A stretch of DNA of 43,784 bases from a virus. The DNA lies in the IMG/VR virus record IMGVR_UViG_3300044447_000008, positions 1 to 43,784 of that record. One strand, written 5' to 3'. Below are positions 13,840 through 18,972 of this stretch, one piece after another. A program made the translations under genes and the position numbers. Positions within the stretch are counted from its first letter, which is position 1, and every line of letters begins with the position of its first letter. Below the pieces are notes generated by a model. It did no database searches. It was given only the letters and a program-made list of their open reading frames with translations, and was not told the DNA's origin.

Positions 13840-13888
13840 CCCCCTGTGTTGGGGGACATGAACATCTTGTTTCGTGCTCGGGATTCGC

Positions 13889-13917
13889 TTGCATGTATGC
13901 ATGCCATCAACTAATAC
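13889..13917 (+). promoter_or_regulatory. Repressor/integrase promoter (plus strand)
   Basis: TTGCAT (-35, 13889-13894) and TAATAC (-10, 13912-13917) with a 17-base spacer. Expected start is about 13924-13925, coinciding with an ATG in the repressor frame at 13925. One operator copy overlaps the -35 and one the start site, mirroring the minus-strand promoter. Confidence 0.7.
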
Positions 13918-13924
13918 TGATGGC

Positions 13925-14437
13925 ATGCGTGCACGTGTGCTGATCACGGGGGCTATGCCAGCCCGCCAACCTCGCCATAGCGTCTCTGGCGTGCCCAAAG
14001 ACCCCGCGACCTTCGGCCGCTACCTCGAACTGCTCATGGCCGAGCACGGATTTCAGACCAAAGCCGAACTCGCCCGCGCCTCAGGCGTCGACGCGACCAC
14101 CATCGGCCGCTGGGTGGCAGGCGAGAAGGAACCCGCCATCGCCGGCCTGCGAGCGATCGCACCCCACCTCGGCGTCCGCCTGGGCGACCTCATGATCAGG
14201 GCCGGGCTGGCGAGCGCGGCGGAGCTGGGGACGGTCGGCGCTCCGCCCGCCCCCCGGGCTCCCCTGCCGCCGGCGGTGCAGCGGGTGATGTCCAGGCTGT
14301 TGAGCCCGCGGTACACGGAGCGGCAGAAATCAGCGCTGCTGGCCGGCATCGACCGGACCACCGACAGCTGGGAGGACGTCGTGAGCGTGCCCAAGGAGCC
14401 TCAGATGCGGCGGAGGCTCCCCGATGCCAAGAGGTAA
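13925..14437 (+). CDS. Phage immunity repressor (HTH_3, no protease domain)
   Basis: 170 aa if started at ATG 13925, which is at the predicted transcription start (leaderless). ATG 13955 behind GGGGG and GTG 13990 are alternatives. The HTH of CI/XRE type covers FGRYLELLMAEHGFQTKAEL, ARASGVDATTIGRWVAGEKE and PAIAGLRAIAPHLGVRLGDL. The C-terminal third is Pro/Arg-rich with a short helix (TERQKSALLAGIDR) and lacks the Ser/Lys autocleavage domain of LexA-like repressors, so induction would not go through RecA-driven cleavage. It overlaps the integrase start by 14 bases, so the two are co-expressed. Confidence 0.8.
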   Translation: MRARVLITGAMPARQPRHSVSGVPKDPATFGRYLELLMAEHGFQTKAELARASGVDATTIGRWVAGEKEPAIAGLRAIAPHLGVRLGDLMIRAGLASAAELGTVGAPPAPRAPLPPAVQRVMSRLLSPRYTERQKSALLAGIDRTTDSWEDVVSVPKEPQMRRRLPDAKR

Positions 14438-16028: not shown

Positions 16029-16040
16029 CCTGGCCTTTCT

Positions 16041-16095
16041 TGGTGGGGCGGGCGGGACTCGAACCCGCGACCGAGGGATTATGAGTCCCATGCTC
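16041..16095 (-). other. attP: attP core: 3' part of a tRNA-Met/Ile(CAT) gene
   Basis: On the minus strand this reads as a tRNA from the end of the D arm through an anticodon loop CTCATAA (anticodon CAT), variable loop and T arm (GCGGG-TTCGAGT-CCCGC) to CCA at 16041-16043. The 5' acceptor and D stems are absent, so it is not a working tRNA. A phage that carries the 3' part of a tRNA gene regenerates the host tRNA on integration. The position, 13 bases after int, marks it as the crossover region. Confidence 0.85.
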
Positions 16096-16103
16096 ATCAG
16101 ATT

Positions 16104-16179
16104 GGATCAGACCGGATCGGACCGGATCAGCCCTCCCACCTGGGCTTTTGAAGAGCCGCGGTCCGATCCGGTCCGATCC
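16104..16179. repeat. 21-bp inverted repeat beside attP
   Basis: The arm at 16104-16124 pairs with 16159-16179 at 20 of 21 positions; both are made of GGATCNG/ACCGGATC units. The 34-base spacer holds a weaker hairpin. It may be a bidirectional terminator between int and the convergent membrane-protein gene, a set of integrase or Xis sites, or both. Confidence 0.6.
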
Positions 16180-16214
16180 GATCCGATCCGTTTTGCTACC
16201 ACGCTGCTACCAAT

Positions 16215-16866: not shown

Positions 16867-17259
16867 TCACGTGGACGTGAAGTAGAACCGATCATCGGGG
16901 TAGGCGACGGCCTTCCCGCTGGTCGTGACCTCGACCATCCTCGCGCCGCGCGCCAGACCGTGATCCAGGCGCTCCTGCCGCGTCGGTAGGCGAACGATCA
17001 GCGTCGAGTAGCGCGTGATGCGTATCTCGGTCCGCTCCGGTGGCACCCTCACCCGGGAAGGGTAGCCGTGGCGGATATCCACCAAGCCCTCCTCGGCCAG
17101 CTCACGGTGAGCGCGGCGAGCCGTCTCGCGGCCGACGCCGTACTCGATCTGTAAATCCCGCTCGGTAGGGATCCGGTCTCCGGGCTGCAACTCGCCGGAC
17201 GTGATCCGGTCGCGCAACAGGTCCGCGACGTCGCGGTACCCAAAACGCCCATCGGTCAC
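16867..17259 (-). CDS. Short GntR-family regulator
   Basis: 130 aa from GTG 17259. GntR winged helix in residues 4-72 (YRDVADLLRDRITSGELQPG, TERDLQIEYGVGRETARRAH, RELAEEGLVDIRHGYPSRVR). The short C-terminal part is too small for a FCD or UTRA ligand domain, as in the KorSA-like regulators of actinobacterial integrative plasmids. Start codon and TAGCAT (17268-17273) are spaced for a leaderless transcript, and a 36-bp palindrome overlaps the -35 area. This points to autoregulation. Confidence 0.8.
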   Translation of the reverse strand: MTDGRFGYRDVADLLRDRITSGELQPGDRIPTERDLQIEYGVGRETARRAHRELAEEGLVDIRHGYPSRVRVPPERTEIRITRYSTLIVRLPTRQERLDHGLARGARMVEVTTSGKAVAYPDDRFYFTST

Positions 17260-17292
17260 GCAACGGCATGCTACGGGCGGTGATCCAAACGT

Positions 17293-17328
17293 CCGGACGC
17301 GTATACGTCCGGACGTATACGCGTCCGG
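17293..17328. promoter_or_regulatory. 36-bp perfect palindrome, likely GntR operator
   Basis: The two 18-bp halves are exact reverse complements, centred between 17310 and 17311. Inside are three CCGGAC/GTCCGG elements and two GTATAC palindromes, so it could hold two or three overlapping dimer sites. It lies 34 bases upstream of the GntR gene start at 17259 and near the end of the convergent neighbour at 17352. Confidence 0.75.
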
Positions 17329-17351
17329 GACGTCGTGCCTGGTCCGGTCGG

Positions 17352-17576
17352 TCAGCGCCACCGGCCCAGAAACCGGCCGTACAGCAGGCCGGCCGTGGTG
17401 CCTGCAGGCGTGTCCGCGACGGCCTGCACGTACAGCTCCGCCAGGAGCAGGGCCAGCGCGATCCGGTCCCCGCCATGCTCCGCGATGAGACGCGCCTGGG
17501 CTCCCGCGCACGGCCAGGGCTCGCCGTCGTCGACACAGATCCACTCCGGCCGGCGGTAATGGTGCGGGATGCTCAC
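17352..17576 (-). CDS. Small hypothetical protein of integrative-plasmid type
   Basis: 74 aa from GTG 17576 (GTGA overlap). Pattern HYRRPEWICVDDGEPWPCAG, then ARLIAEHGGDRIALALLLAE and a hydrophobic C-terminal helix. Similar short proteins (W.C..C..PWPC..AR..L) occur in many actinobacterial mobile elements, where they are often mislabelled flavin reductase. There is no sign of such activity here. Confidence 0.7.
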   Translation of the reverse strand: MSIPHHYRRPEWICVDDGEPWPCAGAQARLIAEHGGDRIALALLLAELYVQAVADTPAGTTAGLLYGRFLGRWR

Positions 17577-17803
17577 ACGCGCACCCGCCGCGCGCCGATC
17601 AGCTGGGGGCGGGTCGCACCGGGCCGCCGCCGGGGGAGCTGGTGCCAGGCCGCCAGCGCGCGGAGGGCGTCGTGCCGGGGCCAGCACGGTCCCTCGACCT
17701 CGCACACCACGCACCGCCCGTCAGCGCTCGAAATGGGGTGATGGTCCACCACGGCCTGGATCTGTTCGATGGTCCGCCGGGCTGTGCTGGTGTACGTGCT
17801 CAT
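17573..17803 (-). CDS. Small zinc-binding hypothetical protein
   Basis: 76 aa from ATG 17803 (ATGA overlap). GRCVVCEVEGPCWPRHDALR contains a C-x2-C...C..H zinc-type motif, followed by ALAAWHQLPRRRPG. Typical companion of the adjacent gene in actinobacterial integrative elements. Function unknown. Confidence 0.72.
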   Translation of the reverse strand: MSTYTSTARRTIEQIQAVVDHHPISSADGRCVVCEVEGPCWPRHDALRALAAWHQLPRRRPGATRPQLIGARRVRV

Positions 17804-17988
17804 CGCTCACCCGCGGCGGCGGCTGCTATGGCTGCTATGTATGCGGTGCCGAGGAGGTGCAGCAGCGTGGGGCAGACGTCGTCAGTGATCCGCGCACCGC
17901 AGGAGCACCGGTTGCTCCACCGGCTACGGCAATGGAGGCTCAGAACCCGCTGCAGTGCCTCGCGGCGCAGAATTCGGGGCTGTCCCAT
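17800..17988 (-). CDS. Small hypothetical protein, first gene of accessory mini-operon
   Basis: 62 aa from ATG 17988, preceded by AAGGGGGG about eight bases upstream. Cys residues CSCGARITDDVC suggest a zinc site. The C-terminus is a short Ala-rich helix (YIAAIAAAAAG). It heads the three-gene minus-strand set opposite the GntR/UTRA gene. Confidence 0.6.
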   Translation of the reverse strand: MGQPRILRREALQRVLSLHCRSRWSNRCSCGARITDDVCPTLLHLLGTAYIAAIAAAAAGER

Positions 17989-18084: not shown

Positions 18085-18170
18085 CTGTACGTACAGGACG
18101 GCAGAACAGCTACGAGAACCGTAAACAGAGCGTGACGGGTTCACAACAGCCGATGCACCTATCTGTACAG
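18085..18170. promoter_or_regulatory. Palindromic operators in divergent promoter region
   Basis: The 213-base gap between the divergent genes (17989-18201) holds CTGTACGTACAG (18085-18096) and CTGTACAG (18163-18170). Both are perfect palindromes with TCTGTAC/GTACAGG flanks in common. They are good candidates for binding by the adjacent GntR/UTRA protein, which could control both directions. Clear -35/-10 pairs are not evident. Confidence 0.55.
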
Positions 18171-18201: not shown

Positions 18202-18972
18202 ATGGCAAGGCCGACGCACGGCCGGCAGCCCGCATACCTCGAAATCGCACACAAGATCCGCCGCGACATCACCAGCGGCGCTCTCCCCGCGGGCACGCGC
18301 CTCAACGAGCAACAGCTCATGGACGACTCGCACGTATCACGCGGCACCGTCCGCCAGGCCATCGGCGAACTCGTCTCGCTGGGCGTCGTGGCGTCGCAGA
18401 ACGGCAAGGGGCACTTCGTCCGCGCTCCCGTCCGGCTCACCTGGCGCGCATCCGACCCCGAACAGAACGATGGCGCCGCCATCCCGTCCGACGCATGGAG
18501 CCGCAGCGTCCGCACACAAGGGCACGAGCCATCCGAGCGGATCTCCTGCGAGGTGGCCTACGCGGATGAGCGGATAGCCGAGTTCCTCGACGTCCCGACC
18601 GGGGAACCCGTCTCAATACGGCGCCGGCTGCGGTACGTGGACGGCGACCCGTTCGCGATCGCGGACTCGTGGTACCCGCGGTCGATCGTGGCGGGCTCCG
18701 CGATTGAGCTACCGGCCGACATCTCACCCGGCATCTACGAGGTGTTCGCCCGGTTAGGGCGGCCATGGGTACGCACGGTGGACACGTGGGTTGCCCGGGC
18801 ACCGTCCTATGAGGAGGCCGCGCTGCTGATCATTCCGCGCGGCATCCCCGTCGCCGAGGTGGTACGCAGGTCCTTCGACAAGGACGACGTACCTGTGCGG
18901 CTAACGCTGTTCACCCTTCCGGGTGACAGGCACGAAATCCAGTACGAGCACGAGGAAGCGAGGACAACATGA
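18202..18972 (+). CDS. GntR-family regulator with UTRA domain
   Basis: 256 aa from ATG 18202, behind GGGAGG. The N-terminal winged helix (YLEIAHKIRRDITSGALPAG, QLMDDSHVSRGTVRQAIGEL, VSLGVVASQNGKGHFV) leads to a UTRA effector domain (about 95-250; EFLDVPTGEPVSIRRRLRYV, DGDPFAIADSWYPRSI, RGIPVAEVVRRS). HutC subfamily: binds small molecules to control transcription. Such regulators (KorSA/TraR/Pra type) govern excision and transfer in actinobacterial integrative plasmids. Its gene overlaps the next by ATGA. Confidence 0.88.
   Translation: MARPTHGRQPAYLEIAHKIRRDITSGALPAGTRLNEQQLMDDSHVSRGTVRQAIGELVSLGVVASQNGKGHFVRAPVRLTWRASDPEQNDGAAIPSDAWSRSVRTQGHEPSERISCEVAYADERIAEFLDVPTGEPVSIRRRLRYVDGDPFAIADSWYPRSIVAGSAIELPADISPGIYEVFARLGRPWVRTVDTWVARAPSYEEAALLIIPRGIPVAEVVRRSFDKDDVPVRLTLFTLPGDRHEIQYEHEEARTT

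Follow-up and report, generated by a model that had tools for sequence, protein, structure and literature searches.

The window, that is, the whole 43,784-nt stretch of DNA analyzed here, encodes a terminase, a major head protein, an endolysin, a RecT-like protein, and an integrase, and is a temperate actinophage in which a 36-bp palindrome (17293–17328) adjoins a short gntR gene (16867–17259, minus strand). As the preliminary description had placed it, the palindrome lies upstream of gntR, 33 bp from its GTG start codon at 17259; on its other side, 23 bp separate it from the stop (17352) of a small co-directional ORF (74 aa, 17352–17576, minus strand). This is the first of three small overlapping ORFs (74, 76, and 62 aa; 17352–17988, minus strand) that lie between gntR and a second GntR gene, encoding a GntR-UTRA protein (18202–18972). 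The 74-aa ORF has ten relatives in genome G199, one of them near a short gntR; this gntR is found near relatives of the window ORFs at 17352, 20068, and 20579, which suggests a related prophage. Upstream of the GntR-UTRA gene are CTGTACGTACAG (18085–18096), a 12-bp palindrome absent from shuffles, and CTGTACAG (18163–18170), which are probably that regulator's own operators. A further DNA-binding regulator of the phage, an HTH protein, is encoded at 13874–14437, and no transporter genes were recognized among the neighboring ORFs examined. By its family match the integrase is an ordinary Phage_integrase, and directly after it comes a stretch (about 16032–16096) that matches tRNA genes over their 3′ portion; from this match and this position, the segment is likely to be the attP core. 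The palindrome, also considered as a phage attachment site, was set aside in favor of this tRNA-like segment. Adjoining the likely attP core is a strong 29-bp inverted repeat (90%) of CGGTCCGATC repeats (16096–16187), which could represent integrase arm sites or a terminator.

The 130-residue gntR product (P0001) belongs to the GntR superfamily, with residues 8–70 matching the N-terminal GntR winged helix-turn-helix domain (PF00392, E 7.3e-20). A single-sequence structure model, whose confidence is low beyond the winged helix, places helices at residues 8–21, 33–40, and 44–56, the last of which contains the motif RETARRA. The C-terminal tail of about 60 residues is strand-rich in this model, in a region where confidence is low. 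No match to a UTRA domain was obtained for the protein even at E ≤ 5, and two relatives give weak partial UTRA matches (E 0.015 and 0.067). A candidate −10 box, TAGCAT (17268–17273, minus strand), is positioned 8 nt before the GTG, and the gntR promoter thus looks leaderless. The same signature is common in the family, with a TANNNT box 5–9 nt before the start in 28 of 46 and 25 of 27 short GntR genes, versus 1.2% of ATG/GTG codons.

The palindrome, CCGGACGCGTATACGTCCGGACGTATACGCGTCCGG, is identical to its own reverse complement over all 36 bp, which bears out the perfect symmetry initially claimed for it. The further claim that such symmetry is rare by chance also holds: the runners-up in the window measure 16 bp, and in 180 windows simulated with Markov models of orders 1–3 at the composition of the window, the longest palindrome was 14–26 bp, with none exceeding 26 bp. 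Apart from a single additional G in its distal half, the symmetry continues into a 45-bp inverted repeat (17289–17333) that is 96% identical to its own reverse complement. Within the palindrome, three CCGG-centered boxes (dyads at 17294.5, 17310.5, and 17326.5; spacing 16 bp) alternate with two GTATAC elements, the element counts being those given in the preliminary description; GTATAC occurs nowhere else in the window. In their longer form these boxes are ACGTCCGGACGT-type sites centered at −35, −51, and about −67 relative to the gntR start, with two CGTATACG boxes between them. The central site, ACGTCCGGACGT itself (17305–17316, center −51), is the one that aligns with the sites of relatives. 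The start-proximal site, ACGTCCGGACGC (17289–17300, center −35), overlaps the −35 region expected from the position of TAGCAT, while the distal site, GCGTCCGGGACGT (17321–17333, center −67.5), carries a 1-base insertion. The CGTATACG boxes (17300–17307 and 17314–17321) flank the central dyad on opposite sides, each 7 bp away. The GT-N4-AC sequence GTCCGGAC is present at 17291 and 17307, and the complete ACGTCYRGACGT is found in the window at 17305 only.

Searches of IMG/VR and of the genome collection gave no close protein relatives, or only distant generic GntR matches, and in the collections searched no relative exceeds about 60% identity. Distant homologs, full-length and of matching size, make up a recognizable family, with short GntR genes, at the cut-offs used, in two actinomycete groups (51 of 250 genomes of one order and 107 of 301 genomes of a second family, to which G199 belongs). 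Beside the gntR genes of relatives, the core of the element, GTC[CT][AG]GAC, recurs where the helix motif is the same as that in the window. No copy of the complete palindrome was obtained: exact and degenerate searches of IMG/VR returned only one chance match, inside unrelated sequence, the element was absent from 395 genomes at up to 3 mismatches, and a DNA-level search with the neighborhood gave no match in plasmids.

Within the family, the sequences of the upstream palindromes vary from subgroup to subgroup in step with the recognition helix. The helix SRDSVRRA is accompanied by ATGTAGCTACAT or GCTACGTAGC, GKATVRQA by CGCTATTACGTAATAGCG and GCGCTATAGCGC, and GRTTVRRA by CACGTGGACACGTGTCCACGTG. 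Within 100 bp upstream, GTC[CT][AG]GAC is present in all five relatives with RET[AV]RR, versus none of 68 with other helices, and the window itself fits this rule in addition to the five; the same motif is found in 13 of 2079 control windows. In the discovery set, from whose two RET[AV]RR relatives the pattern was chosen, the counts were 2/2 versus 0/44. In the validation set, a separate family searched once the helix rule had been fixed, they were 3/3 RETxRR genes, two of which are closely alike, versus 0/24 others (Fisher p = 3.4e-4). The dyads fall between −48 and −58 relative to the start, a range that includes the central site of the window. Relatives have one or two sites; L051 (RET[AV]RR) has TACGTCTAGACGTA and CGTCCGGACG upstream, with one extra site at −26, and so, like the window, has further sites closer to the start. 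The genome G452 homolog (L063) is 84% identical to L051, with similarity beginning at the start codon; its upstream region is unrelated and contains no palindrome. In L087, where the helix differs at one position (RETVRSA), the GTC[CT][AG]GAC site is absent upstream.

Relatives at about 40% identity keep the core and position of the site but not the full 36-bp symmetry, with the exception of one that has an independent 44-bp perfect palindrome. Among RETxRR relatives only this one (L066, helix RETARRA as in the window) shares the long perfect symmetry; its palindrome is centered at −48 on GTCTAGAC, and its outer sequence differs. Perfect palindromes are enriched in the family as a whole, those of at least 12 bp occurring within 100 bp before the start in 21 of 73 short GntR regions versus 96 of 2079 control windows (6-fold), and those of at least 18 bp in 6 of 73 versus 17 of 2079; in most relatives the symmetry is much shorter than that in the window. 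The longest palindrome is centered between −53 and −46 in 17 of 42 regions of the discovery set, and such clustering was not significant in the validation set (5/27, p = 0.18). Longer GntR genes on plasmids, which were excluded from these statistics, also have upstream palindromes.

The core of the site is of a known kind, since its GT-N4-AC arrangement matches that of HutC-type operators, for which a spacing of 4 nt between GT and AC has been reported (PMC4494728); both GTCCGGAC in the window and the GTC[CT][AG]GAC of the five relatives have this spacing. HutC proteins are defined by a C-terminal UTRA effector domain, and since none is detectable in the window protein, we do not assign it to this subfamily, although it is HutC-like at the DNA end. 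The palindromic GT-N4-AC core is likewise shared with the dre operators of the GntR/HutC regulators NagR (YvoA) and DasR. The NagR operator crystallized with its protein is GTGGTCTAGACCAC, with the core GTCTAGAC (PMC4333415), and the identical core occurs in relatives of the window protein; in contrast, the window core is GTCCGGAC, is embedded in a 36-bp perfect palindrome, and is paired with a protein that has no recognizable full UTRA domain. Extended symmetry also has precedents: the SdhR operator is a 26-bp palindrome with additional symmetry, and extra half-sites 7–12 nt from the dyad are reported in the GntR superfamily (PMC4494728), comparable with the CGTATACG boxes at 7 bp. Compared with SdhR and other HutC/FadR operators, the perfect symmetry in the window is longer, and the gene is that of a phage and encodes a short protein. 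NanR, three dimers of which bind cooperatively to adjacent sites in (GGTATA)3 (PMC8012715), provides a model for three dimers of a GntR-type regulator; however, NanR recognizes direct repeats, and its cooperative binding depends on a 32-residue N-terminal extension that is absent from the window protein. In YtrA-type operators, both GT and AC are remote from the palindrome center, and most YtrA genes are in ABC transporter operons (PMC4494728), whereas in the window GT is at −4,−3 from the dyad and no transporter is among the neighboring ORFs examined. YtrA proteins have a C-terminal part of about 50 residues with two helices; the tail of the window protein measures about 60 residues and is strand-rich in the model, which is of low confidence in this region. 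The Micromonospora phage pMLP1 (CP058906.1), too, encodes a 136-residue short GntR protein (38% identity) with a palindrome, AACGTTCGAACGTT, centered at −50; both its palindrome sequence and its helix (RGTVRRA) differ from those in the window. The open-access papers searched contain nothing on the short GntR family or on an operator near −50 of a leaderless promoter, and within them both the long perfect symmetry and the family appear to be undescribed.

Since a shared helix goes, even in distant relatives, with a shared core at a similar distance from the relative's own gene, we consider it very probable that the palindrome is an autoregulatory operator on which the adjacent 130-residue GntR protein lands. 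The preliminary description had proposed a cooperative operator for two or three GntR dimers or, alternatively, a cruciform-forming site. Its operator reading gains support from the recurrence of GTC[CT][AG]GAC at −48 to −58 with the same helix and not with others, while no positive evidence emerged for the cruciform. A GntR dimer would bind ACGTC-CG-GACGT with GT-N4-AC geometry, chiefly at the central site, and the flanking copies at −35 and −67, together with the CGTATACG boxes, may offer contacts for further dimers. The 16-bp spacing of the three sites is compatible with up to three dimers, but relatives have one or two sites; multi-dimer binding is plausible. Because the proximal copy would cover the −35 region of the apparently leaderless promoter TAGCAT-8-GTG, occupancy most likely represses gntR rather than activating it, and a signal may release GntR from the operator.

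Other readings of the palindrome appear improbable. It might act mainly at the RNA level, as a hairpin that terminates or attenuates transcription between the 74-aa ORF and gntR, both of which are transcribed leftward; its position 23 bp past the stop of the co-directional ORF and the strong predicted RNA stem (−53 kcal/mol for 106 nt, z = −3.9) agree with such a role, but the association of the GTCYRGAC core with the DNA-reading helix is not predicted by a hairpin, a candidate promoter lies downstream of the palindrome, no T run follows it, and a terminator scan finds no intrinsic terminator there. We therefore judge this reading unlikely, and as a candidate intrinsic terminator, for which a T run after a G+C-rich stem would be expected, the palindrome was rejected. 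Marginally less likely still is binding by another regulator, either a host protein or one of the two additional DNA-binding regulators that the phage encodes (the HTH and GntR-UTRA proteins): a different palindrome, at 18085–18096, accompanies the GntR-UTRA gene, the one full ACGTCYRGACGT of the window is at the gntR palindrome, and the core recurs elsewhere beside short GntR genes with RETxRR. Perfect inverted repeats of about 36 bp can extrude as cruciforms, and protelomerases use long palindromes, so a site of cruciform formation, replication, or recombination (resembling those of telomere resolution, or used for attachment) is conceivable. We regard it as very improbable, however, given that the probable attachment site is elsewhere, beside an integrase of an ordinary family, and that relatives retain the core and not the extended symmetry.

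The operator reading ties an isolated palindrome to the protein that reads it through a rule that anticipated sites in previously unexamined genes. How many dimers so small a protein loads is a testable question posed by the unusual length of the perfect symmetry. More tentatively, at slightly below even odds in our estimation, the short GntR proteins of actinomycete chromosomes, prophages, and phages may constitute a large family with leaderless promoters and a self-operator near −50 that is rewritten together with the helix and sometimes becomes a 36–44-bp perfect palindrome carrying several dimers. If so, the family would be a natural catalog of orthogonal repressor-operator pairs. Its many naturally diverged regulator-operator pairs are useful for the GntR recognition code, and the family is useful for studies of phage lysogeny control in actinomycetes. 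The G908 relative, located 24 kb from a relative of phage terminases, has a different helix and is without a perfect palindrome. In genome G612, a 44-bp perfect palindrome (L092:7017–7060) upstream of a short gntR exceeds the 36 bp of that in the window.
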